64,000 nt of DNA from an uncultured Clostridia bacterium (GCA_947627045.1 CANQUM010000007.1:1-64000); one strand, 5' to 3'; counted from the first letter of the stretch, positions 9,444-32,083 are shown. The notes: a model not told the origin generated them from the sequence alone. Translations and numbers: made by a program.

Positions 9444-10793
9444 ATGAGAAAAAATGATATTATAAAACTTATAATAGACAGCATTACAAACGAAGGCAAC
9501 GGAGTGGGCAGATATGAGGGAATGGCAGTTTTTGTTCCCTATACTGCAATTGGTGATGAAATAGATTGTCGAATCGTCAAGCTGAAAAAGACCTACGCTT
9601 ACGGTATCGTTGATAGAATACTAACTTCGTCTAAAGATAGAATATCGGCTGAATGCTCTACATATAAAAAGTGCGGAGGGTGTTCGTTTAGGCATTTAAA
9701 ATACGAAGCGGAGCTTGAATCTAAGCAGAACTTTGTAAAGGATTCATTTGAGCGTATAGGAAAGCTGTCAATTGACTTTGATAATATACTCGGCTGTGAT
9801 GAAACTCTGCATTACCGCAATAAAGCGCAGTATCCTGTATGTGAGAAAGACGGCAGTTTAGAGTGCGGATTTTATTCAAAGCGTTCGCACAGGGTAGTTG
9901 ATAACAAAGACTGTCTTTTACAGCCAGAGATTTTCAATAAAATTGCAGATTACACGGTAAAGCTGTTAGGAAAGAACGGATTTATGGCTTACAATGAGGA
10001 AACGGGAAAGGGTCAGATCCGTCATATTTATTTAAGGCAGGGTTTTCACACTAAAGAAATAATGCTTTGCATTGTGGTTACTAAGCGTGATGACAGATTT
10101 AAAAATATTTCCGAGGAAATAATAAAAGAATTTTCGGAAATAAAGAGCATAGTTCTGAATATCAATCCTGATAAAACCAATGTCATTCTTGGGAAACACA
10201 GCGAGGTTCTTTTCGGTAAAGAATACATTTCAGACATTATGTGCGGAGACAAAGTGAGGATTTCTCCGCATTCATTTTATCAAATTAACACTGCACAGGC
10301 TGAGAAGCTTTACGGGATAATAAAAGAATATGCAGATTTAAAAGGAAATGAGACTATTCTTGATTTATACTGCGGAATAGGAACGATAGGTTTTTCGCTT
10401 GCAGGTAATGTGAAAAAGCTGATAGGAGTAGAAATTATTCCCGACGCTGTAGAAAATGCAAAGCTCAATGCCCAATTAAACGGCATTCAAAATGCTGAAT
10501 TTATCTGCGGAGATGCAGGAGAAGTCGCAAACAGACTGATTGAGCGTGGTGAAACGCCTGACATTATTATTGCCGACCCTGCAAGAAAGGGCTGTGATAG
10601 TGTATCGCTTAACGCAATGCTAAAAATGTCTCCTCAAAAAATAATAATGGTTTCCTGCAATCCGTCAACAGCGGCTAGAGACGTAAAATATTTGTATGAG
10701 AACGGTTACAAGGCAGTTAAAGGACAAGCTGTTGATATGTTTCCGAGAACGACGCATGTAGAGTGCGTAATATTGATGTCAAGGGATAAATAA
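9444..10793 (+). CDS. rlmD: 23S rRNA (uracil-C5)-methyltransferase RlmD/RumA
   Basis: TRAM-like N-terminus, CxxCGGCS, DLYCGIGTIG, MVSCNPSTAARD, FPRTTHVE. Confidence 0.93.
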   Translation: MRKNDIIKLIIDSITNEGNGVGRYEGMAVFVPYTAIGDEIDCRIVKLKKTYAYGIVDRILTSSKDRISAECSTYKKCGGCSFRHLKYEAELESKQNFVKDSFERIGKLSIDFDNILGCDETLHYRNKAQYPVCEKDGSLECGFYSKRSHRVVDNKDCLLQPEIFNKIADYTVKLLGKNGFMAYNEETGKGQIRHIYLRQGFHTKEIMLCIVVTKRDDRFKNISEEIIKEFSEIKSIVLNINPDKTNVILGKHSEVLFGKEYISDIMCGDKVRISPHSFYQINTAQAEKLYGIIKEYADLKGNETILDLYCGIGTIGFSLAGNVKKLIGVEIIPDAVENAKLNAQLNGIQNAEFICGDAGEVANRLIERGETPDIIIADPARKGCDSVSLNAMLKMSPQKIIMVSCNPSTAARDVKYLYENGYKAVKGQAVDMFPRTTHVECVILMSRDK

Positions 10794-10805
10794 TTTTTTT
10801 CAGAG
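10771..10805 (+). repeat. 35-bp direct repeat, left copy (3' end of rlmD; putative attL core)
   Basis: tattgatgtcaagggataaataatttttttcagag, identical to 32049-32083. Confidence 0.9.
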
Positions 10806-11170: not shown

Positions 11171-11199
11171 TTGACAAATTATAATATATCATGTATAAT
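11171..11199 (+). promoter_or_regulatory. Predicted sigma-A promoter
   Basis: TTGACA - 17 nt - TATAAT, no ORF immediately downstream. Confidence 0.7.
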
Positions 11200-11643: not shown

Positions 11644-12069
11644 ATGATCACAGAGGGAGGCGGCATGTCCTGGATGTCTCCGAATATGAACATGGAAACG
11701 ACGTCGAACGGCGGGATTGGAAAAGCGCTCGGCAGAGCTTTCTCGGGTGAGAAGATGTTCCAGAATATCTACACCGCACAGGGCGGTCCCGGCATGATTG
11801 CTTTCGCGTCATCTTTCCCAGGCTCCATCGTACCTTTTGAGATCGCTTCGGGCAATGAGATGATCTTCCAGAAGAGCTCGTACCTGGCGGGAGAGAGCGG
11901 CGTGACGCTGTCCGTACACTTCCGCAAGAAGGTTGCCACGGGCCTGTTCGGCGGCGAAGGCTTCTTCAACACCGTGATCACCGGACCGGGCCATGTATGG
12001 CTGCAGACGCTTCCGCTGTCCAACGTGGCGGGCGTTCTGAGAGCATATCTGCCCACCTCGAATTCATAA
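11644..12069 (+). CDS. AIM24/TIGR00266 family protein, apparently N-terminally truncated
   Basis: GEKMITEGGGMSWMSPNMNMETT...SGEKMFQNIYTAQGGPGMIAFASSFPGSI and LPTSNS C-terminus; family N-terminal strands absent. Confidence 0.75.
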   Translation: MITEGGGMSWMSPNMNMETTSNGGIGKALGRAFSGEKMFQNIYTAQGGPGMIAFASSFPGSIVPFEIASGNEMIFQKSSYLAGESGVTLSVHFRKKVATGLFGGEGFFNTVITGPGHVWLQTLPLSNVAGVLRAYLPTSNS

Positions 12070-12340: not shown

Positions 12341-14170
12341 ATGTACAACAGAAGAGAGTTGAAACATAAGGCGAGACAGTCGCTGAAGAAGCACTATTTT
12401 ATCTTCGTGATAGTCTGCCTGGTTGCCTGGTTCTTAGGATCTGGGGGAGGCGGCTCGACCAGTCAGAAGGGCAGAACCTATCAGCCCGTCCAGACCTCGG
12501 CCGAGCTGACGGGAAGCGATACATCGACGCTGAACACCGGTTTTCAGGGACTGCTGGAAGGAAAATCAATGGAGAAGCTCTTAGGCGGTCTGATGGAGTC
12601 CGGACTTGAGAAGATTGGTTCCAGCACGAAGGAATTCGCGGGGACTACGAAGGGAGTCTTCGCCTCTGTGGTGAAGGAGATCTCCTCGGGAACCTTCATT
12701 GAGACCATCGTATCGGCGGTCGTGTCCATGACGGGGGCGAACAGCATTCTACTTCTGCTTTTCATCCTGCTCAGCACGGCGGGCCTGCTGCTGGTGTGGT
12801 TCTATGTGGCGAACGTCTATACGGCGGTCTCCGCGCGTATGTTCCTGGAAGGGCGCACCTACGAGGAAGTGCCGGTGCACAGGTTTCTGCATTTTTACCG
12901 CATCCGCAAGTGGACGAAGGTGGCGTTTGCGATGCTGCGCTGCACGATCTATGAGACGCTGTGGTGGCTCACGATTGTGGGCGGAATAATCAAATCCTAC
13001 TCCTACCGCATGGTGCCGTACATCGTAGCGGAGAATCCGGGGATTTCCTCGAAGGAGGCAATCGCACTTTCGAGGAAGATGATGGACGGACACAAGTGGG
13101 AATGCTTCGTGCTGAACCTTACGTTCATCGGCTGGAGGATACTGGACGCCGTGACGATGGGCATTGTGGGCAAGCTCTACTCCGAGCCCTACCGTCAGGC
13201 GACCTTCGCGGAATACTACGCCTACGTGCGCGCTCTGGTGAAGGAAAAATCCATCGAGGGCAGCGAGCTGCTGAACGATACCTACCTGTTTGAGAAAGCG
13301 GATCGCATGGATCTGCTGTTTGCTTATGAGAAGGAGATCGACGCGATCGGCGAGCCGAAGCCGCCGAAGAAAGTGCGCACGGGAATCCTCGGATTCATCG
13401 CGGACGTCTTTGGCGTGACCCTTGTGAACGACAAGACGGAGCAGGATTACGACGAGTTCATGGCGAAGCACGACGTATACCTGTCGATGCGCGGCGAGAT
13501 GTCCGGAAAGGCTTATCCGGTTCGGCTCGGGCAGTACCAGAGGAAGGGCAAGGAGAAGAAGTTCCGCGGTATCTACTGCGAGCGTCATTACTCCATCTGG
13601 TCCCTGATTATGCTGTTTTTCATCTTCGCGCTCATCGGCTGGCTGTGGGAAGTAAGCCTGCATCTGGTCTCCGACGGCGAGTTCGTCAACCGCGGCGTCC
13701 TGTACGGCCCGTGGCTTCCGATCTACGGAACGGGCGGCGTGCTGATTCTCGTCGTGCTGAACAAGCTTCGCAGCAAGCCGCTTGCGGAGTTCTGCGCGAC
13801 CATCTTGCTCTGCGGCTGCGTGGAGTACTTCACCGCCTGGTACTTAGAGGCGACCCACGGCGGACAGAAGTGGTGGGATTACAGCGGATATTTCCTGAAT
13901 CTGCACGGAAGGATCTGTGCAGAGGGCCTGTTGGTGTTCGGACTTGGCGGCATGGCGATTGTCTACGTGGCCGCACCGTTTTTGGATAACTTTCTGCGAA
14001 AGATCAAGCTACAAATCATAGTTCCGCTCTGCGTGGTGCTGCTGGTGGCATTCACTGCCGACCAAATCTACTCGGGCAAACACCCGAACACCGGCAAGGG
14101 AATCACGGACTATGCGGTGCAGCTGCCGGAGCAGTTCTATTCAGGCCAAAGCATAAATACCCGATGCTGA
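12341..14170 (+). CDS. Membrane protein: N-terminal DUF975-like region plus C-terminal putative ABC-transporter permease (CmpB-like) domain
   Basis: MYNRRELKHKARQSLKKHY start after gggagg RBS; C-terminal TM region with CGCVEYFTAWYLEATHGGQKWWDYSGYFLNLHGRICAEGLLVFGLGG. Confidence 0.7.
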   Translation: MYNRRELKHKARQSLKKHYFIFVIVCLVAWFLGSGGGGSTSQKGRTYQPVQTSAELTGSDTSTLNTGFQGLLEGKSMEKLLGGLMESGLEKIGSSTKEFAGTTKGVFASVVKEISSGTFIETIVSAVVSMTGANSILLLLFILLSTAGLLLVWFYVANVYTAVSARMFLEGRTYEEVPVHRFLHFYRIRKWTKVAFAMLRCTIYETLWWLTIVGGIIKSYSYRMVPYIVAENPGISSKEAIALSRKMMDGHKWECFVLNLTFIGWRILDAVTMGIVGKLYSEPYRQATFAEYYAYVRALVKEKSIEGSELLNDTYLFEKADRMDLLFAYEKEIDAIGEPKPPKKVRTGILGFIADVFGVTLVNDKTEQDYDEFMAKHDVYLSMRGEMSGKAYPVRLGQYQRKGKEKKFRGIYCERHYSIWSLIMLFFIFALIGWLWEVSLHLVSDGEFVNRGVLYGPWLPIYGTGGVLILVVLNKLRSKPLAEFCATILLCGCVEYFTAWYLEATHGGQKWWDYSGYFLNLHGRICAEGLLVFGLGGMAIVYVAAPFLDNFLRKIKLQIIVPLCVVLLVAFTADQIYSGKHPNTGKGITDYAVQLPEQFYSGQSINTRC

Positions 14171-14192
14171 GGCCGCAAGAAAGGAGAATGCT

Positions 14193-15938
14193 ATGTTTAG
14201 TTTTTTTGGAAAACAGATCAAGCCGTATCGCAAAATCATCTGCTGCGTGTTGCTTTTGCAGATAGGACAGACGCTGCTGTCTCTGTATCTGCCGAGGATC
14301 AACGCGGGGATCATCGACTACGGCGTAGCAAACGGCGATACGGGCTACATAATCAACAAGGGCATCATCATGGTGGTGCTGTCCATACTTCAGTTCGGCT
14401 GCGCCGTGGGCGCAAGCATACTGGGCGCGAAGGCCGCGCTGTCGGTCGGCCGCGACCTGAGGGAGAAGATATACACGAAGATCCTGTCCTACTCGCAGAG
14501 AGAGATTGCGAGCTTCGGAGCGCCGACGCTCATCACGCGCGCGACCAACGACGTCGAGCAGGTGGTTCGTTTCCTGACAATCCTGCTGACGGTGCTGATT
14601 ACCGCACCAGTCATGTTCGTGGTCGGCATTATCATGGCGATTGCGCAGAGCGTATCGCTCTCGGTCGTCATATTGGTTACCGTGCCGATGCTTGTGATTA
14701 TATCAGTCATATTCCTGATGAAAATGCTTCCGTACTACAAGGCGCAGCAGGAGCATATTGATGGATTGAACGTCATCCTCCGGGACCAGATCTCGGGCGT
14801 GCGTGTGGCGAAGGCGTTCACGCGCGAGCCGTTTGAGATTAAGCGCTTTGGAGTAGTCAACAAGGATCTCTCCGAGATCAACCTGGCTATCACCAGACTG
14901 AACTCCCTGATGAGCCCACTGTTCATGTTTATCGTGAATGCCGCTACAATCGCCATATTGTGGTTCGGCGGGTATTTGTCGGAGCAGGGTTCGGTGCAGG
15001 TCGGTGAGATCATCGCTTTCATTACCTATCTGTCATTTATCATGACGGCCACGCTCTCCGCGGCGATGGTGTTCATCCTGATGCCGAGAGCGGCGGTGGC
15101 GACGGACCGTATCATAGAGGTGCTGGACGCGGAAAGCTCGGTGGAGGACACCGAGAGTCCGGCCGCAACGAAATCCCTGCGCGGCGAGGTACGCTTCGAG
15201 GACGTGAGCTATTCCTACGCGCCGGATCATCCAGAGGTGGAGCCGGTTCTTCAGCATCTGTCCTTTACCGCGAAGCCGGGGACGACGACGGCGATTATCG
15301 GTTCCACGGGCAGTGGCAAGACGACGCTGCTGAACCTGATTCCGAGGCTTACCGACGCGACCGGCGGCGCCGTCTATTTCGATGGGATCAACGTGAAGGA
15401 TCTCAAGCAGGCGGAGCTGCGCTCCGCAATCGGCATGGTACCGCAGAAGGCCTTCCTCTTCGCAGGTTCGCTCGCGGATAATATGCGTTACGCAAGGAGC
15501 GACGCGACCGACGAGGAAATCTGGGAGGCACTCCGTGTGGCGCAGGCGGATGGATTTATAAAAGAGAACAAAGATGGGATCCATATGCGCGTGTCCGAGG
15601 GCGGCTCGAACTTCTCGGGCGGTCAGAGACAGCGTCTGGCGATTGCGCGGGCGATCGTCCGCAGACCGAAGGTCTACCTTTTTGACGACTCGTTCTCTGC
15701 ACTCGATTACGCGACGGACAAGAAACTGCGCGGCGAGCTCAAAGGCGTGACAGCCGACGCGGCGGTCATCGTGGTTGCACAGCGCATCAGCTCGGTGATC
15801 GATGCGGATAATATCATTGTTTTGAACAACGGAATGATCGAGGACATGGGGACGCACGACGAGCTGATCGAGCGCTGCGCGACCTATCAGGAAATCGCCT
15901 CGACCCAGCCGACGGAAGAATCGGAGGTGAGCGCATGA
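14193..15938 (+). CDS. ABC exporter half-transporter (permease-ATPase)
   Basis: Six-TM N-terminus; Walker A GSTGSGKTT, signature SGGQRQRLAIARA, Walker B VYLFDDSF. Confidence 0.93.
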   Translation: MFSFFGKQIKPYRKIICCVLLLQIGQTLLSLYLPRINAGIIDYGVANGDTGYIINKGIIMVVLSILQFGCAVGASILGAKAALSVGRDLREKIYTKILSYSQREIASFGAPTLITRATNDVEQVVRFLTILLTVLITAPVMFVVGIIMAIAQSVSLSVVILVTVPMLVIISVIFLMKMLPYYKAQQEHIDGLNVILRDQISGVRVAKAFTREPFEIKRFGVVNKDLSEINLAITRLNSLMSPLFMFIVNAATIAILWFGGYLSEQGSVQVGEIIAFITYLSFIMTATLSAAMVFILMPRAAVATDRIIEVLDAESSVEDTESPAATKSLRGEVRFEDVSYSYAPDHPEVEPVLQHLSFTAKPGTTTAIIGSTGSGKTTLLNLIPRLTDATGGAVYFDGINVKDLKQAELRSAIGMVPQKAFLFAGSLADNMRYARSDATDEEIWEALRVAQADGFIKENKDGIHMRVSEGGSNFSGGQRQRLAIARAIVRRPKVYLFDDSFSALDYATDKKLRGELKGVTADAAVIVVAQRISSVIDADNIIVLNNGMIEDMGTHDELIERCATYQEIASTQPTEESEVSA

Positions 15939-17725
15939 GTACCGGAGAAGCGAAAAAGCCGAAAAAGAAAGTAAAGAAGGGCATGTTCCGAAAGCTGCTC
16001 GGACTCTTCGGGGAATACAAGGCAGCGTGCGTGCTGATGCTTGTGATGCTGATAGTGGCCGGCATCTTCACGGCGATAGGACCGCGCATCATGGGCAGCG
16101 CCACGGACGCGATCGTGGACGGGCTCGCTGCGGGAGGCATACACTGGAAGACGTTCATCTTTTGGGCGTGCGCGTCGATGGCAGTCTATATTCTTCAATT
16201 TGTCGCAAAATGGGTGGCGGGCCGAACCTCCGCAGGGATTACCTCGCGCATCGCGATGGACCTGCGCAGCAAGGTCGAAGAAAAGCTGTGGACCCTGCCC
16301 CTCAATTTCTACGATACGAACCAGCGCGGCGACATCATGAGCCGGACGTCCAACGATGTGGACAACGTGGTCCAGACGCTGAACCAGACCGGCGGTGATT
16401 TCGTCTACTACCTGCTGATGCTGATCGGCATGGTCGCTATGATGTTCATGCTGTCCTGGCAGCTGGCGCTTGTTACTGCTCTGCTAATCCCGCTCTCGGG
16501 CGTGCTCGTGAAGAAAATCACGACGGTCTCGAAGCCGGCGTTCCAGAGACAGTGGCAGTACATGGGCAGGATTAACGCAAACGTGGAGGAGAGCTTCAAC
16601 GGCCACAACATCATCAAGGCGTACGACCAGGAGGATCCGTTCAGCGAGACGTTCCGCGCTCAGAACACGGAGCTCTACAACACGACGATGAAGGCGACGA
16701 TTATCTCGAACCTGATCCAGCCGCTGTCGCGTCTGCTCACGAATCTGAACTACGTCATCGTGGCGCTGGTCGGTGCGTTCAAGATCATAGGCGGACAGAT
16801 GAGCGTGGGCGACGTGCAGGCGTTCATCCAGTACGCGAGACAGTTCCAGCAGCCGTTCAGCAACCTGGCGCAGATGATCAGTACTCTGCAGTCGGGCCTT
16901 GCCTCTTTGGAGCGCATCTACGACATGCTCGAGAGCGAGGACGAACTGGCGGACGCGGACGACGCATACGATGAGTACGAGCTCAAGGGTCAGATCGAAT
17001 TCCGCGACGTGTCATTCAGCTATACGCCTGAGAAGAAGCTTATCGAGCACATGAACCTCACCGTGAAGCCCGGACAGACCGTGGCGATTGTGGGCGGTAC
17101 GGGCGCAGGCAAGACCACGCTCGTCAACCTCATCGAGCGCTTCTATGAAATCAACAGCGGACAGATCATACTGGACGGAAACATTGAGCTGCACAAGCTG
17201 AGCCGCAAGGCGCTGCGCCGCAACATCGGCATGGTGCTTCAGGATACCTGGCTGTACAACGCTACGCTTGCAGAGAATATTATATACGGAGTACCGAAGC
17301 TGAAAGAGATCACGCGTGAAGACTTCTTCGGCGCCTGCGAGGCGACCTTTGTGGACAAATTCGTGAAATCACTGCCTCTGGGCTACGGGACGATTCTGAA
17401 CAACGAGCAGACGGCGGTATCCGCAGGCGAGAAACAGCTCGTGACGATTGCCAGGGCATTCCTCACGAAGCCGAACATCCTGATTCTCGACGAGGCGACG
17501 AGCTCGGTCGACACCAAGACCGAGGCGCAGATTCAGGAGGCCGTGAACCGGCTGCGCGAGGGCAGGACCAGCTTCATCATCGCCCACCGTCTATCCACGA
17601 TCCGCGGCGCGGATATAATCCTCGTCATGCAAAACGGACACATCGTGGAGCAGGGCAACCACGAGGAACTCTTAAAGCTCGGCGGCGAGTACGCAAGACT
17701 TTATCGCGCACAGTTCGCGAACTAA
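15935..17725 (+). CDS. ABC exporter half-transporter (permease-ATPase), partner of the preceding gene
   Basis: Walker A GGTGAGKTT, degenerate signature VSAGEKQLVTIARA, Walker B ILILDEATSS; 4-nt overlap with upstream gene. Confidence 0.93.
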   Translation: MSTGEAKKPKKKVKKGMFRKLLGLFGEYKAACVLMLVMLIVAGIFTAIGPRIMGSATDAIVDGLAAGGIHWKTFIFWACASMAVYILQFVAKWVAGRTSAGITSRIAMDLRSKVEEKLWTLPLNFYDTNQRGDIMSRTSNDVDNVVQTLNQTGGDFVYYLLMLIGMVAMMFMLSWQLALVTALLIPLSGVLVKKITTVSKPAFQRQWQYMGRINANVEESFNGHNIIKAYDQEDPFSETFRAQNTELYNTTMKATIISNLIQPLSRLLTNLNYVIVALVGAFKIIGGQMSVGDVQAFIQYARQFQQPFSNLAQMISTLQSGLASLERIYDMLESEDELADADDAYDEYELKGQIEFRDVSFSYTPEKKLIEHMNLTVKPGQTVAIVGGTGAGKTTLVNLIERFYEINSGQIILDGNIELHKLSRKALRRNIGMVLQDTWLYNATLAENIIYGVPKLKEITREDFFGACEATFVDKFVKSLPLGYGTILNNEQTAVSAGEKQLVTIARAFLTKPNILILDEATSSVDTKTEAQIQEAVNRLREGRTSFIIAHRLSTIRGADIILVMQNGHIVEQGNHEELLKLGGEYARLYRAQFAN

Positions 17726-17770
17726 AAGATACCGAATATCCTATAAGAAAAATAGCAGGAGGAAAATATT

Positions 17771-19126
17771 ATGAAAATCGTATTCTACAACACATCGTCA
17801 TCTGTTATGGAAAACCGCAAGCTGTCGCTGCTCTATCCGAAGCGCGCCGAGTTGTGGGACGGCCTTGCGGCGCAGTATCCGGAGCATGAGATCTGCTTCG
17901 TGGCGACCAAGGGCGGCGACATCCTTATGGACGCCGACAACGGCGGAGAGCTTCCGCGCCCGCAGAACGTGCAGTACGTGCTCACCGAGGTAACGGACAG
18001 CGCGGATCAGATCGTCGATATCATCGCTGCCCAGAAGCCTGACGTGGTCATGGGGATTTCGACCGGCAACTATCCGATTGACTGGAACTTCATCAATGAC
18101 GCGGTGATTGCCGAGAAGCTTCGCGAGAAGGGAATTCGCACGATCGCACACCCCGTATCCACGGCTATGGCGTTCTACGACAAGTGGCGTTCGTCCATGG
18201 CACTGCGCTACTACGGCTTTAAGGTCGCAAAGAGCATCTTTGTTCACAACGACCAGTTCTGGGCAGAGCAGGTCATCGGGAACATTAAGTGCAACATTTA
18301 CAAGGAGTACATTTTATACAGAGTGAGCCAGTTCAACTACCCGGTCATCATCAAGGAAACGGTCAGCGCCGGCTCGATTGGGATTCAGACCGCGGACACT
18401 TTCGAGGAGGCCGCTGCTATTCTGACCTCCGAGAACAACAAGTCTGACGTGATCGTGGAAGAGCTCATCAAGGGCGAGGATTTCAGCGCGGAGGTTTACG
18501 GGGCGGACGGCGTGTACCATGTCTCCTACCCGATTCGCCTGTACATGGGCGACTCCACCCCGTTCGCGGGCGCGACAGACTCCTTCCAGAGCGTGAAGTT
18601 CGGCCCGATCACATCGGAAAAGTACCATGTGAAGGAGCTGCGTGAGACGCTGCTCAAGATGGCGAAGGATTATCAGTTCGGCGGTGGAGCCAACCTCGAC
18701 CTGATGTTCAAGGACGGCGAGTGGTACGTCATTGAGGTGAACCCGAGGTTCTCCGGTCTGACGAACACGGTGGCCGGGATTATGGACAGGAACCCGCTGA
18801 TTACCTACGCAGAGGGTATTTTCGGCGGCCCGAAGGAAGATTTTTCGGATCCGGCGAACCTCAAGTACGTGCTCAACTTCAAGATTCGCAAGATCGACGA
18901 GGAGATGTTCAAAAAGATCAGCGAGCGCAAGAGCGTGAAGCATATGTACTTAAGCGTGTCACAGTACGGCGAGAAGCTCTCGGAGTACTTTGAGGTAGTC
19001 ATCGGAGGCTTCGCTACGGGCGAGGAGCTCCTTGCAGAGCTCAAGAGCATAGCCGAGGAGTTCCCGGACGCCGTGTCTGAGAACACGATAAAGAATACGG
19101 CTTATCTGGTGGAGCAGTGCAAATAA
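17771..19126 (+). CDS. ATP-grasp ligase (carboxylate-amine ligase-like)
   Basis: YPVIIKETVSAGSIGI, VIVEELIKGEDFSAEVY, WYVIEVNPRFSG. Confidence 0.85.
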   Translation: MKIVFYNTSSSVMENRKLSLLYPKRAELWDGLAAQYPEHEICFVATKGGDILMDADNGGELPRPQNVQYVLTEVTDSADQIVDIIAAQKPDVVMGISTGNYPIDWNFINDAVIAEKLREKGIRTIAHPVSTAMAFYDKWRSSMALRYYGFKVAKSIFVHNDQFWAEQVIGNIKCNIYKEYILYRVSQFNYPVIIKETVSAGSIGIQTADTFEEAAAILTSENNKSDVIVEELIKGEDFSAEVYGADGVYHVSYPIRLYMGDSTPFAGATDSFQSVKFGPITSEKYHVKELRETLLKMAKDYQFGGGANLDLMFKDGEWYVIEVNPRFSGLTNTVAGIMDRNPLITYAEGIFGGPKEDFSDPANLKYVLNFKIRKIDEEMFKKISERKSVKHMYLSVSQYGEKLSEYFEVVIGGFATGEELLAELKSIAEEFPDAVSENTIKNTAYLVEQCK

Positions 19127-19147
19127 GGTTTGAAGGAGGTTTTTGCT

Positions 19148-20074
19148 ATGCGTGATTTTAAACAGCCATGGATGCTGTGTGCGAACGTGGACGATCTGGT
19201 CGAAAAGTACGGGATCGAGATGCTCAAGATGGACACCCCGGTCTTCAAGGTGCGCGGAAAGGACGGCAAGGAATATGTTCACAAGATGGACGCACCAATC
19301 TTTAAGAGGGTCATCCTCGAATATCTGGATCTCAGCATCGATCCGGGCAATCAGCTCAGGGCGCACTATCTGGGTGAGGAAGTGAAGCTGCCGGAGTACT
19401 TCCTTCCGGCAATCTCGAATACGGACGCGCTCGTGGCCGAGCATCTTCTGATCCAGGCGGGGTGCAAGTGCATCCTGAATCTGGAGGAGTTCGCCGCCGC
19501 GCGCAGCAAGATCATCACCTACGGCCGCCTTGCTGCGAACGGGGTTCGCGTGCCGCGCACGATTGTGATCTTCAAGCACAGCGACAGGGATTCGATTGAG
19601 AAGGAAATGGGCTTCCCGTTTGTCATCAAGCCGGACAATGGGTACGGCGGCGTTGGTGTGGAGTTGATCCATTCGCGGGAGGAGCTTGACGCATATCTGG
19701 ATCATCAGGATCCTGGCGTATCCTATATGGCGCAGGAGTACATCAGTACCTCCTTCGGACGCGACCTGCGCGTCGTCATGCTGAAGGGCAAGTACTTCTA
19801 TTCCGCTACGAGGAATTCCAACAATACCGAGGAGTTCCGCTCGAACGTCCATCAGGGCGGCTCGATTACGGAGTGTCCCATCGACGACAAGGTGCTCGCG
19901 CTTTGCGAGAAGGTCGCGGGACTGTTCGACCTGCCGCTTCTGGGACTCGACCTGCTCTTTGGGGACGGCGAGTACGTCGTCGTCGAGGTAAACGCGATGC
20001 CGGGTCTCGACAATGAGCGCACGGCGCAGGTTCACCAGATACTTCTGGACGATTTTATGAAAAAGAATCAATAA
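19148..20074 (+). CDS. ATP-grasp ligase (RimK-like)
   Basis: FPFVIKPDNGYGGVGV, AQEYISTSFGRDLRVVMLKGKY, VVVEVNAMPGL; start placed after aaggagg. Confidence 0.85.
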   Translation: MRDFKQPWMLCANVDDLVEKYGIEMLKMDTPVFKVRGKDGKEYVHKMDAPIFKRVILEYLDLSIDPGNQLRAHYLGEEVKLPEYFLPAISNTDALVAEHLLIQAGCKCILNLEEFAAARSKIITYGRLAANGVRVPRTIVIFKHSDRDSIEKEMGFPFVIKPDNGYGGVGVELIHSREELDAYLDHQDPGVSYMAQEYISTSFGRDLRVVMLKGKYFYSATRNSNNTEEFRSNVHQGGSITECPIDDKVLALCEKVAGLFDLPLLGLDLLFGDGEYVVVEVNAMPGLDNERTAQVHQILLDDFMKKNQ

Positions 20075-20092
20075 AGGCAGAGGGGGAGACAA

Positions 20093-21799
20093 ATGCTCCA
20101 GAAACGAAACATTCCCAAAGACATTGATCCGAAGGATCCTTTGTATACGGCGTACCAGGTGTTCAACGAGACAGTGGACATGTGTATGGACGCGCGTCGT
20201 TACAGCCACGAGCTGCTGATGCAGCTCGTGCGCGACAATGAGGAGACCGAGTTTGGGAAGAAATACGGCTTCAAAGAGATCCGTTCGGTGGAAGATTACA
20301 AGAAGCGTGTACCGTTTTCCTCGTACGACGACTACGCCGTGGCGATTGAGCGGATGGTGAAGGGGGAGAAGAACCTCATCACCGCTTATCCCGTCGTGCA
20401 CTACGCACTGACGTCCGGAAGCGTGGACAATCCCAAGAACATTCCGGTGAGCAGCCGTACGATGGAGGCGTATATGAAATACGCATCCAACCTTTCCAGC
20501 TGCATCTACGATTTTGCCATACGCGAGAGGAAGGGACGTTCCCCGAAGCAGGGCAAGCAGTTCCTCACTGCGGTCGTCAAGACTGACTACACGCCGGACG
20601 GGACGCTGCGCGGTCCGATCTCATCGGCGATCTACCTGCAGAACAAAGCGTTTATGCACTATATTCTGCCTTGGCCGGTGGAAGTGATGTACCCGGAGGG
20701 GCACTCGCTGAACCAGAAATACCTGCGCGCGTTTTACGCCTTGAAGGAGAGGGGCATCACGCGCATGGTCGCGCCGTTTATGACGGCTCTGGTGGACAGC
20801 ATGTACTACATAGAGATCAACTGGCGCTCGCTTGTCGGCGACATCGAGGCCGGGAAACTGGACGACGACGTCGATATGGACGAGGAACTCCGGGAAAGAT
20901 TCAACGCACAGCTTGCACCGGATCCCGAGCGGGCCGCCGAGCTGAGGGCGATCTTTGAGCAGGGCTTTGAGGAGCCTGTGATTCCGAAGATCTGGCCGGA
21001 CTGCGACTTTATCGCATCGATTGGCGGCGGCGGATTTGCCGCATACACCAAGAAAATGAAACGCTATTCCGGGGATATCCCTATGTACTTTAACTGTTAT
21101 GGGGCGTCCGAGGGTCCAATCGCGACGATCATGGACTTCGAGTCCTTCGAGAACACGCTGATTCCGGCAAACGGCTTCTTCGAGTTCATTCCGGTGGAGG
21201 AGGACGGCAGCGATCCCACGAGGACACTCGGCCTCGACGAGCTGGAGGTCGGACACGAGTACGAGATTATCGTCACTAACCTCACGGGCTTCTACCGCTA
21301 CCGCATCGGCGACGTGATAGAGGTGGCCGGCTATGACGGTCAGTCCCCGCGGCTTCTGTTCAAGTACCGCAAGAACCAGATGATCAGCATCGCCGGAGAG
21401 AAGACGAACGAGGCGGGCGTCGCCTGGGTTGTGCACGAGTTTGAGAAGGAGACCGGGGAGTCGATTACGGACTTCAGCATCTACGCGGACACGGACGACC
21501 TTCCGGGGCGCTACGTGCTGTTTTTGGAACCTGAGCGACATCTGCCGCTCGAGGAGTATGAGCGGTACCGGACCATCTGCGACGAAAAGATGGGAATTGC
21601 GAACCCGTCCTACGGCTCAAAGGTGAAGGAAAAGCTGCTGCTGTCTCTGAAGCTGAACTTCCTACAGCAGGAGACCTACTATCTCTATCGCGATATGATG
21701 GTGATGAGGGGTATTTCCGAGAACCAGATCAAGCCGGTGCGGGTGATTGACACGCCGCGGAAGGAAAAATTCTTCTTCGGTCTGATCGACAAGGAATAG
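20093..21799 (+). CDS. GH3-family acyl-acid amido synthetase
   Basis: HYALTSGSVDNPKNIPVS, NCYGASEGPIATIM, GFYRYRIGDVIEV...FKYRKNQMISIAGEKTNE correspond to GH3 motifs 1-3. Confidence 0.87.
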   Translation: MLQKRNIPKDIDPKDPLYTAYQVFNETVDMCMDARRYSHELLMQLVRDNEETEFGKKYGFKEIRSVEDYKKRVPFSSYDDYAVAIERMVKGEKNLITAYPVVHYALTSGSVDNPKNIPVSSRTMEAYMKYASNLSSCIYDFAIRERKGRSPKQGKQFLTAVVKTDYTPDGTLRGPISSAIYLQNKAFMHYILPWPVEVMYPEGHSLNQKYLRAFYALKERGITRMVAPFMTALVDSMYYIEINWRSLVGDIEAGKLDDDVDMDEELRERFNAQLAPDPERAAELRAIFEQGFEEPVIPKIWPDCDFIASIGGGGFAAYTKKMKRYSGDIPMYFNCYGASEGPIATIMDFESFENTLIPANGFFEFIPVEEDGSDPTRTLGLDELEVGHEYEIIVTNLTGFYRYRIGDVIEVAGYDGQSPRLLFKYRKNQMISIAGEKTNEAGVAWVVHEFEKETGESITDFSIYADTDDLPGRYVLFLEPERHLPLEEYERYRTICDEKMGIANPSYGSKVKEKLLLSLKLNFLQQETYYLYRDMMVMRGISENQIKPVRVIDTPRKEKFFFGLIDKE

Positions 21800-22044
21800 C
21801 TGCCGAATGTTAATATTTGGCGGCAAAAAGCGGATATTCTGTGATAAAATTAAATAGGAAAAAAGTAATTGAATTTTGAGTCCTTATCGTGTGAATGGGG
21901 AGCGGACACCTGTACCCTGGAGGACGGGAGTTGTCTGCTGCTCTCCGTGCGGCACAGCGCTGGGATCCGCGCACCTACGGCAACTATGTGTTCGACCGGT
22001 TGTCCCGGCGGAAAGGATTACAATAAAAAGTAAGAAGACCCGTC

Positions 22045-22214
22045 ATGGTGACCTATCTGCAGCTGGAGTTTTTTATCCTGATCTTTTCGATGCTGCTCTT
22101 TGTTACCGTGACGTTCTACTGTGACAAGATCACCGGAAGCCATTATATTTAGAGACGCTCGTGCAGCTGCGGAGCTTTCTGATGCTGGTCATTCTGGTGG
22201 ATCAGGTCGTTTGA
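22045..22214 (+). pseudogene. Decayed membrane-protein N-terminus
   Basis: MVTYLQLEFFILIFSMLLFVTVTFYCDKITGSHYI* then +frame LETLVQLRSFLMLVILVDQVV*; looks like one TM protein broken by a frameshift/stop. Confidence 0.35.
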
Positions 22215-22318
22215 CTGAACATACTGGAGTAAATGAGCCGTGCCGAACGGCGGCGGACGCGTGTCAAAGCGCACGGTTTATCAAATAAAAGCAAAAACAA
22301 AAAATGGAGGATACTGCT

Positions 22319-22615
22319 ATGACAATCAACAAAAAACAAGAGGGAACTACACTTGAGATTGCGGTCGAGGGACGTCTCGACACGACGACCGCGCCCCAGC
22401 TCGAGGCGGAGCTGAAGCACAGCATCGACGGTATCACGGCCCTGACGATGGATTTCGCGAATCTGGAGTACATCTCATCCGCAGGACTGCGCGTGCTGCT
22501 GTCCGTACAGAAGGTGATGAACAAGCAGGGCAGCATGGTGGTTCGCCATGTCAACGAGATGATCAGCGAGATCTTTGAGGTAACCGGCTTCGTCGATATC
22601 CTGACGATTGAGTAA
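22319..22615 (+). CDS. STAS-domain anti-sigma factor antagonist
   Basis: DTTTAPQLEAEL and LEYISSAGLRVLLSVQK (phosphorylatable Ser region). Confidence 0.9.
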   Translation: MTINKKQEGTTLEIAVEGRLDTTTAPQLEAELKHSIDGITALTMDFANLEYISSAGLRVLLSVQKVMNKQGSMVVRHVNEMISEIFEVTGFVDILTIE

Positions 22616-22650
22616 AAGCATTTATTTAAAGAAATGGCACAGAGAAAGGA

Positions 22651-24819
22651 ATGAACCGCATGAATGATGCTAACAAACCGATGGTACCGCTGGAAAAAAA
22701 GGTGTTCCGGGCGATACTTCGACTTTTGCTGGTTACATTGCTGGTGGTGGGAGCCGTGATCGTTTTCCAGCTTCTTCAGCTGCGAAGAGGCATGATCACC
22801 GCGAACGTGGAGACCGGGCAGGAGGTGGAATCGATTTCCTCACAGGCGATGGAAGAGATGATGGAGGAAAATCTCCTGCGCCTGACTGCGGAAAAAGCAT
22901 CGGCGGCGGATAAGGTATTCTCGGATCTGGGTCAGACGGTCTCTATTCTAGCGAAGAACGCGGAGTATCTGTATGAGAACGACGCGAAGATCGATGGGGT
23001 CGAGGTTCATCTGCCCGACCGGAAGAACGGAGACGCATTGGATGTGTACGTTACTTACTCGGATAAGGCGGATCAGTCTTCCAAAAAGTTTCAGACCGAG
23101 CAGGAGCTGCTCGGCAATCTGCAGTGGGATCTTCTGGCGGTTACCTCGGAGCATGAGGAAGTCAATTCAGACTATTTCGCTGCCGAATCCGGCTTCATGC
23201 TCCAGGCGGACAATGTTTATCAGGAACAGTTTGACGATGAGGGAAACCTGCTCACGTTTGAGGCGAAGGAGCGTCCATGGTATCAGGGAGCGGTCGAAGC
23301 GAACGGGCTCTATTTTACGGAACCTACACATGACGCGTCCACCGGGGATTTCGCCGTCATGTGCAGCATTCCGGTCTATGACCGTAAGGAGCTGAAGGGC
23401 GTCGCAGGGGCAGGCATGTATCTGACCAGCCTGAAGGAAACTGTGTCGGAGGCCGTGATCGGAGAATCCGGCTCCGCCTGCCTGCTGGACGGGAACGGAA
23501 ACGTCATCTTTTCCACCAGAAACTCCGGGGAACTCTCGGCCGGCGCTGAGGACCTGGCGAACGCCCTCGATACGACTAAGGGGGATCTGAAGCAGTTCCT
23601 CATCGAAGCGGTCGGCGGCACGCAGGCGGTCTCGCTGACTGCGGTCGACGGAGAGAATGCGTACGTATCCTGCTCGCCGCTCGGCACGGTGGGATGGACG
23701 CTGATCTCGGTGCTGCCGGAGGATATCGTAACCGCGCCGACCCAGAGTTTGACAGGTGCGCTGGCGACGAAGAACGATGAGATGCTGCAGCAGTCCGACC
23801 GGAGGTTTCTGACTGCGTTTATCACACTGCTGGTGGCGGTGGTAGTTCTGATGCTGGTTGCGAACCTGGTATCCAAGAGGCTGTCCTCGCGGCTTACACA
23901 GCCGATCGTGGCGCTCACCGACAAAGTGAGGGAGATCGAGGGAGACAATCTGTCTTTTACCTGGGATCAGCATACGAATGATGAGATCGATGTGCTGGCG
24001 AATTCCTTCGGCACCATGACGAAGCGCATCGAGCAGTACATTGCAGATATCACGGCAATCACGGCGGAGAAGGAGCGCATCGGTGCGGAGCTTTCCGTGG
24101 CGACGCAGATCCAAGCGGATATGCTGCCCTGTATCTTCCCGGCATTTCCGGAGCGCGAGGATTTCGATATCTACGCTTCCATGTGTCCGGCCAAGGAGGT
24201 GGGAGGAGACTTCTATGACTTCTTCCTTATGGATGACGATCATCTTGTGATGGTGATGGCGGACGTGTCGGGCAAGGGAGTTCCGGCCGCGCTGTTCATG
24301 GTTATCTCTAAGACGATCATCAATAACCAGGCGCAGTTCTCGGATTCACCGAAGCAGATCCTGGAGACGGCAAACAATCTGCTGCAGGAGAACAATGCGG
24401 AGGATATGTTCGTGACGGTCTGGCTGGGTATCCTGGAGATATCAACCGGCAAGCTCAAGGCGGTGAACGCTGGACATGAGTATCCGGTGATCCGCGGGAC
24501 AGACGGGAAGTTTGAGATTCTGAAAGATAAGCACGGCATGGTACTCGGGACGATTCCGGGTTTGAAATACAGAGAATACGATGCCGAGATTGAGGAGGGC
24601 GGCTGCCTGTTCCTGTACACGGACGGTGTGGCGGAGGCGACCGACGCGAAGAACGAGTTGTACGGCACCGAGCGGATGCTGGAGGCTTTGAACCGCGATC
24701 CGTTGGCGAATCCGCAGCAGCTGCTCGTCAACGTGAGGGCGGACATTGACGCGTTTGTGGGCGACGCGCCGCAGTTTGACGATATCACGATGATGGCGAT
24801 GGAGAGAAAAAAACAGTGA
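22651..24819 (+). CDS. Sensor phosphatase: dCache-HAMP-SpoIIE (PP2C)
   Basis: TM + RPWYQGAV...TGDFAVMCSIPVYD Cache-like region, HAMP, PP2C motifs ADVSGKGVPAALFM, FLYTDGVAEA, FDDITMMAM. Confidence 0.9.
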   Translation: MNRMNDANKPMVPLEKKVFRAILRLLLVTLLVVGAVIVFQLLQLRRGMITANVETGQEVESISSQAMEEMMEENLLRLTAEKASAADKVFSDLGQTVSILAKNAEYLYENDAKIDGVEVHLPDRKNGDALDVYVTYSDKADQSSKKFQTEQELLGNLQWDLLAVTSEHEEVNSDYFAAESGFMLQADNVYQEQFDDEGNLLTFEAKERPWYQGAVEANGLYFTEPTHDASTGDFAVMCSIPVYDRKELKGVAGAGMYLTSLKETVSEAVIGESGSACLLDGNGNVIFSTRNSGELSAGAEDLANALDTTKGDLKQFLIEAVGGTQAVSLTAVDGENAYVSCSPLGTVGWTLISVLPEDIVTAPTQSLTGALATKNDEMLQQSDRRFLTAFITLLVAVVVLMLVANLVSKRLSSRLTQPIVALTDKVREIEGDNLSFTWDQHTNDEIDVLANSFGTMTKRIEQYIADITAITAEKERIGAELSVATQIQADMLPCIFPAFPEREDFDIYASMCPAKEVGGDFYDFFLMDDDHLVMVMADVSGKGVPAALFMVISKTIINNQAQFSDSPKQILETANNLLQENNAEDMFVTVWLGILEISTGKLKAVNAGHEYPVIRGTDGKFEILKDKHGMVLGTIPGLKYREYDAEIEEGGCLFLYTDGVAEATDAKNELYGTERMLEALNRDPLANPQQLLVNVRADIDAFVGDAPQFDDITMMAMERKKQ

Positions 24820-25988
24820 GAGTATTATTACATACCAGGGGTCTTGTCGCGCTCGCGGCGGCCGCCCTTCTAGCCGTGGGCACGCTCACGAACTGCAAAG
24901 CGGCGAATGAACCGGAGCGCGTGGCGCGGAATGATGTGAAGATCGGCTGCATCATCGCGGAGGAGTACGGAAGCTTTTCCGAGCAGCTCTCGGCGGCGAC
25001 GGAGAGCTTAAGCCGGCAGGGACTCATAGGGGAATACGATCCTCCTGCGGGCGTACGCCCGGCACAGGATGTATGGGACGACATCTGCGAGGTGCAGCAG
25101 ATCGAGAACGCCGAGTTTGTGAGAGAGAGCTTCTACAACACGGATCAGATGGAAGAAAGTGAGATGGAGGACGTCTTTTTCCACGAGAGCGACGTCGACC
25201 TTATGCTGGTCTTCGGGACGGCGGCGGGCGTATGGCTCACCGAGAACGCCTCGAAGCTTTCGTTTGAATATATGGTCTTTGCGAGCGCCGACCCGATTTC
25301 GGGTGGAATCGTGAAGAGCGAGACGGAGCGCTTCAACGACATCTCGTTTGCCCATGTGGATCCGGGGCGGCTCGGCAGACAGACCGAGCTGGCCTACGAG
25401 ATCATGCCGTTTGACTCGATCGGAGTGGTCTATGAGGATTCCGATGCTGCCTACAGCTATTCGGGAATTGCCCAGCTCGAAGCCCTGAGTGAAAAGAACG
25501 GGTTTGAGATTCACAGGCTGCATGTTGATGAGCCAAGCAAGGACAACAATTACACCCGCTATTACAATGAGCTGAAGGCTGCGTACCACGAGTTGCTCCC
25601 AGACATTGACGTTCTGTATATCACAACGGGAATGATCGAGGACAATATGTTGCCGTGGCTGCTTGAAGAGGTGCACGAAGCAGGGATCATCACGGTGGCG
25701 GAGACCGCGGAGAGCCAGGTGGAATACGGGGCACTGATGCACATTACGATGTCGGACGCGTCGGAGGAGGGAGGCTTCCTCGCGCAAACGCTGATAGACT
25801 ACCTGGACGGTACCCCAATCGACGAGCTGGATCAGGTATTTCTGATCACGCCGCATATTTCCCTGAATCTGGAAACAATAGAAAAAGTAGGGGCGAAGAT
25901 CCCGATGAGCATATACCTGATCGCAGACAAGATCTACGGACAGGAGACAGACGCGGCGACCGGGACGGAAACGGGAAATGAATCGTAA
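24816..25988 (+). CDS. ABC-type substrate-binding-like lipoprotein/periplasmic protein
   Basis: Signal sequence with LTNC lipobox-like motif; periplasmic-binding-like fold sequence; GTG start overlapping the previous stop. Confidence 0.65.
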   Translation: MRVLLHTRGLVALAAAALLAVGTLTNCKAANEPERVARNDVKIGCIIAEEYGSFSEQLSAATESLSRQGLIGEYDPPAGVRPAQDVWDDICEVQQIENAEFVRESFYNTDQMEESEMEDVFFHESDVDLMLVFGTAAGVWLTENASKLSFEYMVFASADPISGGIVKSETERFNDISFAHVDPGRLGRQTELAYEIMPFDSIGVVYEDSDAAYSYSGIAQLEALSEKNGFEIHRLHVDEPSKDNNYTRYYNELKAAYHELLPDIDVLYITTGMIEDNMLPWLLEEVHEAGIITVAETAESQVEYGALMHITMSDASEEGGFLAQTLIDYLDGTPIDELDQVFLITPHISLNLETIEKVGAKIPMSIYLIADKIYGQETDAATGTETGNES

Positions 25989-26967
25989 GATTGGAAGAGG
26001 AAACATGCACAACAAACAACGACTCATGATAGAACTTCTGGCGCTGCTGCTGACGGTGATCACGCTGGTTCTGGGCGGGCTGATGTATTTCAGCAACCTC
26101 AAGAATACCAGGCAGAATCTTATCGGAGTGGAGCTGGCGGATTTTATCTACAATACCGATTACAGTATGAAATTTGGCAAGAGGATTGAGACGTTCTACG
26201 GGATGCAGGAAGACCTGCTTGAGCTGCGTGACTCGTTCGACGACGTGGATGAGCTGCACATTCTCTCTGTGAGGAACCGGCTGCTGTTTTCCACGGAACC
26301 GGCGATGCTGACGGAACGCGCGTATTCCATGCCAGCGGGGAACAATATGAGCGACGGGAATCATCTCTACTGTATGTACGCGGTGGGCGACGACGCGCGC
26401 ATCCTGACGGTCAGCAAGATTTCAGACATACATCGGGAGATGGGTAGCTATCTTCTGAAGCTCGTGGGAATCGCGGCGGTCGGTCTTGTCCTTGTGCTGC
26501 TGTTGATACATCTGGTCTGGAGGCTGCTCCTGGAGGGGAAGAGTGCGTACCGTATCGCGGCGGTCGTGCCCCTGATCTGGATCGCGGCATTCAGCGTGAT
26601 GACAGGTGTGGACGCATACCGCGATTACGCCGGGAGTTCCCGGGAACTCTGCGAGTCCATCGGGGAATCGGTGCAGGCGGACATCGCGAATGTGGAGGCA
26701 CTCGGCGTCGCGCGGGAGGACTTTTACGAGGTGGAGGCTTATCTGCAGCGCTACACGGATCTAATACCGGAGGTGGAGGAGCTGTCCATCGGGGAGGACG
26801 ACGAGATATCCTACAAGATGTCGGCGGATTACCTCCGCAAGATGGCGCTGGACTATGTCCTGCAGGCGGTGCTGCTTCTGACCTTTTCGATTTTGATCTT
26901 GGCGGAGTATCAGTTATTTGTTACAAATACGGGAACACTAACGGAGGGGCAAAATGGAACAGACTGA
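25978..26967 (+). CDS. Membrane protein with extracytoplasmic sensor-like domains, no output domain
   Basis: About three or more hydrophobic segments, two extracytoplasmic segments; overlaps both neighbours. Confidence 0.6.
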   Translation: MNRKIGRGNMHNKQRLMIELLALLLTVITLVLGGLMYFSNLKNTRQNLIGVELADFIYNTDYSMKFGKRIETFYGMQEDLLELRDSFDDVDELHILSVRNRLLFSTEPAMLTERAYSMPAGNNMSDGNHLYCMYAVGDDARILTVSKISDIHREMGSYLLKLVGIAAVGLVLVLLLIHLVWRLLLEGKSAYRIAAVVPLIWIAAFSVMTGVDAYRDYAGSSRELCESIGESVQADIANVEALGVAREDFYEVEAYLQRYTDLIPEVEELSIGEDDEISYKMSADYLRKMALDYVLQAVLLLTFSILILAEYQLFVTNTGTLTEGQNGTD

Positions 26968-28120
26968 ATTTATGAAACAGAATGCGTTTGTCCGCCTGAT
27001 CTTCGTGTTTGCCTTCTTCGCCGCGTCGATCGGCGACTCGTTCAACGTCGTCTATATCCGGCAGATGACGATGGCAGTACCGGGAGGAAACGTGGATCTG
27101 CTGGTGAGTCTTCCGATCACCTTTCTCTCGGCGATGACGGTGTTGGGCGTGATCGTCTCCGGCGGGATATGCAGGCGGACGAAACGCTTCGGCTCTTTTC
27201 TGAGTGTCGGAGTGCTCGCCCTGATGCTCGGTCTGATCGTAAGGGGAGCTGCGACGGATTATCGCATGCTATTCCTCGGCTTCGGCATATCCGGTTTCGG
27301 GAGCGGCTGTCTCTTTATCGGCATACGCTACTATTCGTTCCTCTTTGCGGACGACAGGCAGAGGATGCGTGCACTCGTGTATGTGAACGGCGGTGCGTTT
27401 GCCGGACAGTGCATGGGCACGATCCTGGGCGGTATACTGGCAAATCAGCTGGCTTACTCCCACATTTATCTGGGCTCCGCTGTGATTTTGCTGGTGCCAT
27501 TAGTTATGTCGCTGAGGGTACGGGTCGAGGGGAGAGTGGAGGCGGGAAGCTACGCGGACATTTTCCGGGTGCTGAAGAATGTGCGCGCCCTGAAATTTCT
27601 GCTGTTCCTGCTACTGCCGGTCTACACTAGCTCGGTATTCATATCGTACATTGTGCCGCTCTTTGTCAACGAATACGGGTATTCCGCGACGGTAACCTCG
27701 GTGCTGATGCTGTCGAATTACCTGCTCTGCGCGTATGTGGGGCCGTTCATGACCGACTTTGTATCCGACCGTATGTCGTCTCTTAAGGCCACATACCTCT
27801 ACATGGTGGCGAGCGCGGTGCTAATCATACTGTACGGCTGGATTGCGGTGATGCCTCTGTTGGTGCTGGCCGTGTTGCTCTGCGGAGTGCTGGACTCGTT
27901 CGGTCTTTCTGTGATTATGGACGCGTTTACGAAGACGAAGACCACACAGAGCTATTCCGACAACGACGCGCTGATCATCTTCATCCTGGTGTCAAGGGTG
28001 GGGCAGATGATCGGACCGACGCTGATCCTGGTGTCCGGCGGCGTGATGTTCCTGGGACTGTTTCTGCTTGTCGGGTTCGGGGTGTATCTCGCGCTGGCGA
28101 GAATTCCAAAAAAGTCCTGA
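26954..28120 (+). CDS. MFS transporter
   Basis: About 12 hydrophobic segments, SGFGSGCLFIGIRYY, MFS-like charged loops. Confidence 0.8.
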   Translation: MEQTEFMKQNAFVRLIFVFAFFAASIGDSFNVVYIRQMTMAVPGGNVDLLVSLPITFLSAMTVLGVIVSGGICRRTKRFGSFLSVGVLALMLGLIVRGAATDYRMLFLGFGISGFGSGCLFIGIRYYSFLFADDRQRMRALVYVNGGAFAGQCMGTILGGILANQLAYSHIYLGSAVILLVPLVMSLRVRVEGRVEAGSYADIFRVLKNVRALKFLLFLLLPVYTSSVFISYIVPLFVNEYGYSATVTSVLMLSNYLLCAYVGPFMTDFVSDRMSSLKATYLYMVASAVLIILYGWIAVMPLLVLAVLLCGVLDSFGLSVIMDAFTKTKTTQSYSDNDALIIFILVSRVGQMIGPTLILVSGGVMFLGLFLLVGFGVYLALARIPKKS

Positions 28121-28176
28121 CGGGAATGTTTCGTACGGAAAATAATAAGGACGATCTACAGGGGGGGTAGCGAGAC

Positions 28177-28764
28177 ATGGATTATGTGAAGGAATCGAAT
28201 ATCCCGTTTCTGATGAAAATGTTTGACGAGAATTTCGGTGAGCGTTATATGTCGGAGGATGAGATTCGCTGGCATATCAACGATGAAAACGAATTCTTTT
28301 ACGCAGCGAGGAGGGAGGACGGCCGCCTTGCGGGGATTGCGCTGTTCGGGGTGGAATCGGAGCAGAAGCTGCACGAGGAGACGAAGATTCCGCGCGAGGA
28401 GCTGAAGCGGCTGGCGCACGGGAAGCAGCTGGTCAAGTTCCGGAGCATGTGTATATCCTCGGACTGCCAGGGGCAAGGGATAGGCTCGAAACTTCTGGCC
28501 GACGCAATCGCGGATCTGAATAGTCGTGGAAAATTCGGGGCTGTCACCTCGCTGATCTGGACGTACGACGACAAGGTCCCGGCGCGGGGAGCGCACCTGA
28601 AAAATGGCTTCCGCTATCTGCACAGGGTTTCCCGGCCCTGGTACCATATGAAGGATTATTACTGCGTCTTCTGCAAGGGCCGCTGCAAATGCGACGGCGT
28701 GCAGTATGTTCTGGAACTGGAGGATGAACATGTGGGCGATGCCCCAGACGGCGAGGCAGGATGA
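28177..28764 (+). CDS. GNAT family N-acetyltransferase
   Basis: CISSDCQGQGIGSKLLADAI acetyl-CoA binding motif. Confidence 0.85.
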   Translation: MDYVKESNIPFLMKMFDENFGERYMSEDEIRWHINDENEFFYAARREDGRLAGIALFGVESEQKLHEETKIPREELKRLAHGKQLVKFRSMCISSDCQGQGIGSKLLADAIADLNSRGKFGAVTSLIWTYDDKVPARGAHLKNGFRYLHRVSRPWYHMKDYYCVFCKGRCKCDGVQYVLELEDEHVGDAPDGEAG

Positions 28765-28777
28765 AGGAGGGATTCAG

Positions 28778-29185
28778 ATGAAAGAAATGACAATCGAGGC
28801 GAAAGTGGAAAACATCCCTGTAGTCACGGAGTTTGTGGACGGACAGCTCGAGGCACACGGCTGTTCCATGAAAGCACAGATGCAGATCAACATCGCAATC
28901 GACGAGCTGTTCGGCAACATCGCGAATTACGCTTACGAGACAGGCGATGGTGCGGTTACGGTGCGCGTGGAGCTGAAGGAGGATCCGCTTTCGGTGGTGA
29001 TCACCTTCATCGACAACGGCATGCCCTACGATCCGCTTAAGAAAGAGGATCCTGACGTTACGCTCTTTGCGGAGGATAGAGAGATCGGCGGACTCGGCAT
29101 CTACATGGTCAAGAAGATCATGGACGGCATGAACTACGAGTACAGGAACGGACAGAACATTCTGAAGATAACAAAGAATATATAA
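28778..29185 (+). CDS. RsbW-like anti-sigma factor/serine kinase (HATPase)
   Basis: NIAIDELFGNIANYAYE (N box), DNGMPYDP (G1), GGLGIYMVKKIMD (G2). Confidence 0.88.
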   Translation: MKEMTIEAKVENIPVVTEFVDGQLEAHGCSMKAQMQINIAIDELFGNIANYAYETGDGAVTVRVELKEDPLSVVITFIDNGMPYDPLKKEDPDVTLFAEDREIGGLGIYMVKKIMDGMNYEYRNGQNILKITKNI

Positions 29186-30990: not shown

Positions 30991-31047
30991 CATACTGTTG
31001 TCATGTTTGAAGTGATATAGTGAAAGAAAAAATTGGAGGTTATACAT

Positions 31048-32000: not shown

Positions 32001-32048
32001 TAATGGGCGTGAAACTTCATGTGCGGACGGCATATGTCGAGTGTGTAG

Positions 32049-32083
32049 TATTGATGTCAAGGGATAAATAATTTTTTTCAGAG
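32049..32083 (+). repeat. 35-bp direct repeat, right copy (displaced rlmD 3' end; putative attR core)
   Basis: Identical to 10771-10805; preceding bases 32022-32048 encode a diverged RlmD C-terminus (VRTAYVECVV|LMSRDK*). Confidence 0.9.

Follow-up and report, generated by a model that had tools for sequence, protein, structure and literature searches.

A GH3 synthetase gene linked to two ATP-grasp ligase genes and an ABC exporter in a probable biosynthetic island of Clostridia

The window, by which we mean the whole 64,000-nucleotide stretch of DNA from an uncultured Clostridia bacterium analysed here, carries an island that, judging from sequence comparisons, was probably acquired horizontally and probably directs the synthesis, without carrier proteins, and the secretion of a small molecule, an N-acyl (pseudo)peptide or an amide. 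The gene content, the intact active-site motifs, the purifying selection and the linkage of the genes in multiple lineages are observed. An earlier note had proposed that a six-gene block in this island makes and exports a small amide or oligopeptide; this idea gained support from a sister cluster in which an NRPS module is found in place of the ligases, but the membership of one gene and the limits of the cluster had to be revised.

The six genes were correctly placed in that proposal. All of them are intact, lie on the plus strand and are tightly packed (consecutive intergenic gaps of 22, −4, 45, 3 and 18 bp), and the domains that had been named were recovered by Pfam. They encode a membrane protein with DUF975 and ABC_trans_CmpB matches in a single chain (12326, TTG, or 12341, ATG, to 14170); two ABC half-exporters recognised from Pfam and structure-chain matches (ABC1, TM287-like, 14193-15938; ABC2, TM288-like, 15935-17725); two ATP-grasp ligases assigned from Pfam, NCBIfam and alignment, one of 451 aa with a Ddl/CPS-like core (ATP-grasp-1, 17771-19126) and one of 314 aa that is RimK/LysX-like (ATP-grasp-2, 19130-20074); and a full three-domain GH3-family acyl amido synthetase, assigned from Pfam, its motifs and a tree (20093-21799). 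Compared with the copy in a Marvinbryantia MAG, the five genes from ABC1 to GH3 show purifying selection, with dN values of 0.025-0.062, dS values of 0.45-0.63 and dN/dS ratios of approximately 0.05-0.12. The DUF975/CmpB gene was present only in the window and in the copy of genome G005; because it is absent from the Lachnospiraceae copy L005, from the Monoglobus-type clusters and from the clusters of a second genus (g164), we do not consider it a core gene, contrary to the original proposal. The limits given to the cluster left out its regulatory half, since the co-directional block runs past 21799 to 29185. PADLOC gave no match for six proteins submitted to it, and Rfam gave none across positions 9000-36000 of the window.

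The GH3 protein matched PF03321, PF23571 and PF23572 with 234, 83.8 and 67.1 bits (cut-off 23.6), aligned over nearly its full length with the plant acyl-acid amido synthetase 4b2g (1.9e-86), and contains the three GH3 nucleotide-binding motifs reported for it earlier (TSGSVDNPK, YGASE and GFYRYRIGD). The relatives of this protein with solved structures are plant acyl-acid amido synthetases. Its acyl-pocket residues are unlike those of the plant enzymes, with P342 aligning with W336 of JAR1. The two ATP-grasp ligases are indeed dissimilar, and the alignment showed that their candidate ATP/Mg residues are invariant (K195, D310, E322 and N324 in ATP-grasp-1; K167, D274, E286 and N288 in ATP-grasp-2). 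The NCBIfam scores of ATP-grasp-1 were far below the cut-offs; up to 1e-3, neither Pfam nor NCBIfam yielded an LAL-type (BacD/TabS) match for this protein, and its PDB matches were weak. The AlphaFold models obtained from shallow alignments were poor, with a mean pLDDT of 49.0 for ATP-grasp-1 and 45.9 for GH3. ABC1 and ABC2 matched TM287 (1.2e-128) and TM288 (6.5e-125), that is, the two chains of the TM287/288-type heterodimeric exporter, from which the window pair differs in being linked to GH3 and ATP-grasp genes. In ABC1, the catalytic position of Walker B is occupied by Asp (VYLFDDSFSALD), and Pfam detected no C39 peptidase domain in the window ABC proteins.

Co-occurrence of GH3 and ATP-grasp genes beyond the window had been set beforehand as a test of the proposal, and the linkage was found to recur in at least three lineages. 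In the profile search, ATP-grasp-1 was detected in 5 of 392 genomes sampled from the class, each time within approximately 2 kb of a GH3 gene. The order ABC1-ABC2-ATP-grasp-1-ATP-grasp-2-GH3, followed in some cases by another GH3 gene, is shared in synteny by genomes of Lachnospiraceae and of the Monoglobus type. All 13 loci retrieved by the genome-contig scan belong to MAGs labelled 'Lapin', for which we infer a rabbit gut source. The cassette of genome G292 (loci L013 and L094) is decaying: the ABC2/ATP-grasp region is deleted and GH3 is broken by a TAG stop. The GH3a genes of G871 and G876 also carry internal stops, and from these decaying relatives it follows that the trait is dispensable in places.

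A second form of the cluster was found in genus g164, which is very probably Acetobacterium and includes a genome (G188) that looks like the model acetogen A. woodii. A strong GH3a match was present in 18 of the 19 genomes of this genus, and in no other genus among the sampled relatives; GH3b was present in 17. The order GH3b-GH3a-ABC1-ABC2-RimK-RimK is kept in all 13 g164 loci that were fetched, with a STAS gene leading in 12 of them and a HATPase gene as well in two. All the fetched g164 loci also have, next to the GH3 operon, a divergent gene for a protein of approximately 740-880 aa (L099, 13024-15357; L164-L174), and the copy in L099 showed matches to bacterial Ig-like domains. Since the ATP-grasp families of the window form and of the g164 operon are partly different, the same compound is not implied.

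A third form accompanies the ATP-grasp cluster in G115, a genome of a Monoglobus-type genus, where a separate locus reads GH3a-GH3b-(AMP-binding, PP-binding, Condensation)-ABC1-ABC2; in G914, GH3a-GH3b-NRPS reaches the contig end. The GH3b proteins of G115 and G914 form one clade with those of g164 (100/100, with a long-branch warning from the tree tool). An NRPS module forms peptide bonds. That an A-PCP-C module occupies the position taken by the ATP-grasp pair in other loci thus suggests that the ATP-grasp ligases likely build a peptide bond in the secreted product, and among the sequence comparisons this swap is the strongest argument for such a role and for a secreted acyl-peptide or amide. 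The idea of a route without NRPS stands for the window, where the genes scanned with Pfam contain no PP-binding or condensation domains, but it does not extend to every relative, as G115 and G914 show.

The island is delimited by its base composition and by a direct repeat. GC content rises from approximately 39% to approximately 55% at 11.6-12 kb and returns at approximately 29.1 kb, which defines a high-GC island of about 18 kb. A 45-bp sequence from the 3' end of rlmD, its stop codon included, lies on the left (10761-10805, plus strand, attL-like) and recurs on the right with two mismatches (32039-32083, plus strand, attR-like); shuffling the window 20 times produced no such repeat. In G005, too, the island is bounded by this repeat, at positions 365 and 19420 of L002. 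In the congener G012, sequence matching window position 29946 follows approximately 170 bp after rlmD, as in an uninterrupted-type site; therefore, the cassette is missing at this site. Insertion occurred at rlmD in a site-specific style. GH3 was found in 2 of the 15 genomes of the window's genus and rlmD in all 15. The GH3 of the window clusters with sequences from Lachnospiraceae (L003, 96%; L006, 90%; L005, 88%), and this grouping together with the GC contrast suggests horizontal transfer of the island from a high-GC donor. The main ORFs scanned with Pfam in the interval bounded by the repeats include no integrase gene, and the element is likely a relic or cis-mobilised. No related DNA was found in plasmids, which contained only distant GH3s, and no protein relative was found in phages. 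A chimeric contig was rejected as the origin of the arrangement: a 473-kb contig of G005 has the same island, flanks and repeats at approximately 95% identity. Genes for a WYL-domain regulator and an AlkZ-related protein (30088-32000) separate the high-GC block from the right repeat; the regulator is 96% identical in G012, a genome without the cassette.

Genes outside the initial six-gene block make up the rest of the high-GC island, all on the plus strand. Upstream lies a shortened AIM24-family gene (11644-12069; PF01987, 1.2e-37), whose counterpart in L005 encodes 227 aa and directly precedes ABC1. Upstream of the island genes there is also a 12/12 sequence match to a sigma-70-type promoter (TTGACA, 17, TATAAT) at 11171-11199, a match that by itself does not speak for function. 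Downstream of GH3, at 21885-22212, blastn pieces, the genes of L006 and the sequence itself identify the remains of two genes, one for a LytTR response regulator and one for a GHKL sensor kinase; both are intact in L006, between GH3 and STAS, and the window retains fragments only. There follow a STAS-domain anti-sigma-factor-antagonist-like protein (22304-22615; Pfam and NCBIfam) and, from the Pfam scan, a dCache-HAMP-SpoIIE (PP2C) membrane phosphatase (22651-24819), an ABC_sub_bind-like protein that scored just below the Pfam cut-off and is probably a lipoprotein (24816-25988), a membrane protein without a Pfam match (25978-26967), an MFS transporter (26954-28120), a GNAT acetyltransferase (28177-28764) and a HATPase_c_2 (RsbW-like) protein (28706-29185). 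The gene order from STAS to HATPase is conserved in G005 (L002) and in the Lachnospiraceae MAG L006.

As in partner-switching modules, STAS, SpoIIE phosphatase and HATPase types all lie in one block of the window; unlike in those modules, no sigma factor gene was seen among the island genes, and the block is linked to GH3 in several genomes. STAS-GH3-SpoIIE-HATPase units, whose GH3 belongs to a different clade, were also found in G017, G256 and G464; SpoIIE and HATPase form a fusion in G464. With 2-5 STAS genes per genome, a STAS gene is expected by chance within 5 kb of GH3 in 1-1.7% of cases per genome, a figure that is descriptive because the loci were noticed first. In G017 (contig C3, L020, 5300-19761), two ABC transporter genes come after the unit, and at least one of the transporters has a C39 peptidase. 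Also present are a gene for a radical-SAM/SPASM protein and a number of short ORFs, two with matches to Nif11, so that a RiPP locus likely adjoins the GH3 partner switch here. In G256 (contig C23, L097, 9712-16601), the order is STAS-GH3-MatE-SpoIIE-HATPase, and the protein encoded after it has an eCIS core domain.

According to the scheme that we favour, the two ATP-grasp ligases would join amino acids via acyl-phosphates, and GH3 would adenylate a free fatty, aryl or short-chain carboxylic acid and cap the amino end; alternatively, GH3 may activate the peptide acid and add an amino acid. The ABC1/ABC2 heterodimer would export the product, and the STAS/SpoIIE/HATPase module, in one relative also the LytTR/GHKL pair, may control the cluster. 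This scheme would be analogous to the pathways in which an amide bond synthetase works with an ATP-grasp enzyme, with GH3 as the amide bond synthetase. The combination of an adenylating amide ligase with an ATP-grasp enzyme is an established route in the biosynthesis of dapdiamide (DdaG/DdaF) and of fungal E-64 (Cp1D/Cp1B), where it is carrier-free, as in the window, and yields a small pseudopeptide (PMC12568646). The same pairing is found here, given that an adenylating-type ligase gene is adjacent to ATP-grasp genes and the linkage is conserved. In contrast to the dapdiamide and E-64 pathways, the window would rely on GH3 as the adenylating enzyme, has two ATP-grasps together with a linked ABC pair and partner-switch genes, and shows no warhead-forming genes in the cluster. 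The other nearest precedent is the bacterial GH3 OlsH, a planctomycete lyso-ornithine lipid synthetase that joins ornithine and a free fatty acid and requires neither ACP nor CoA (PMC12493201). Like the window GH3, OlsH is bacterial and has the three nucleotide-binding motifs, and it performs acyl-amino-acid chemistry on free acids; the window GH3 differs in having no OlsI partner among the island proteins scanned and in its linkage to ATP-grasps and an exporter. The plant GH3s VvGH3-1, JAR1 and PBS3 belong to the same three-domain family, whereas the window GH3 is bacterial and lies in a probable biosynthetic operon.

The precedent of OlsH raises the question of whether the product is an envelope lipid, with GH3 making an N-acyl amino acid, the ATP-grasps extending the head group and the ABC pair flipping an aminolipid or lipopeptide to the other side of the membrane. 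OlsH (NF052613) is the sole NCBIfam match of the window GH3, the enzyme makes N-acyl ornithine (PMC12493201), and MsbA-type relatives are among the ABC2 matches. However, the score is 95.6 bits against a cut-off of 620, GH3a and GH3b of g164 likewise matching OlsH far below it; OlsH works without ATP-grasp partners, no OlsI-type alpha/beta hydrolase was present among the island proteins scanned with Pfam, and the NRPS-containing form points toward a peptide. We regard this lipid product as unlikely. The regulatory genes would fit a signal in which an exported autoinducer, an acyl-peptide or amide, is sensed by dCache-SpoIIE, the binding protein or the GHKL kinase, and these sensors feed back on the cluster: STAS, SpoIIE and HATPase genes adjoin GH3 in the window, G005 and L006, a STAS gene is linked in 12 of 13 g164 loci, all three types occur in the units of G017, G256 and G464, and L006 has the LytTR/GHKL pair. 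Partner switches, however, serve stress control too, the Monoglobus-type clusters lack the module, and the LytTR/GHKL pair has been lost from the window, so that a cell-cell signal seems quite improbable.

ATP-grasp ligases also define the graspetides (PMC8939145), and the other-clade GH3 in L020 adjoins Nif11, C39 and radical-SAM genes, observations that would accommodate a graspetide or another RiPP whose ribosomal precursor is crosslinked by the ATP-grasps, with GH3 in an accessory role. This is very improbable for the window: the largest gap from ABC1 to GH3 is 45 bp, which leaves no space for a precursor gene in the core, the ABC proteins lack the C39 domain, and the text of the graspetide survey does not mention GH3. 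Finally, a point against our reading is that ABC pairs of this family are common as exporters, and the pair could be a resistance pump. Over these alternatives we prefer a small molecule that is secreted, either an N-acyl (pseudo)peptide or an amide.

In agreement with the earlier note, which did not recognise the arrangement as a described system, no published cluster with the same order was found in the open-licence literature searched; searches that combined GH3 with ATP-grasp, with Clostridia, with Acetobacterium or with bacterial natural products retrieved no such cluster. OlsH was the only bacterial GH3 with proven function in the literature found. Here, GH3 is tied to ATP-grasp ligases across multiple lineages, and in one form an NRPS module replaces the ligases. 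A broader proposal, which we put forward tentatively and consider doubtful as a whole, is that these genes represent a new class of bacterial signals or antibiotics: N-acyl oligopeptides made by GH3 and ATP-grasp ligases, exported through an ABC pair of their own, sensed via a GH3-linked partner switch (dCache-SpoIIE, STAS and HATPase), and spread by site-specific islands among gut Clostridia, with a near-core operon in an acetogen genus. Because the operon is syntenic throughout g164, very probably Acetobacterium and with an apparent A. woodii among its genomes, the chemistry could be tested in cultured strains. If the proposed function is true, NRPS-independent amide biosynthesis would extend to GH3 enzymes, and the linkage would provide a mining rule for anaerobes, revealing clusters that NRPS and RiPP searches probably miss.
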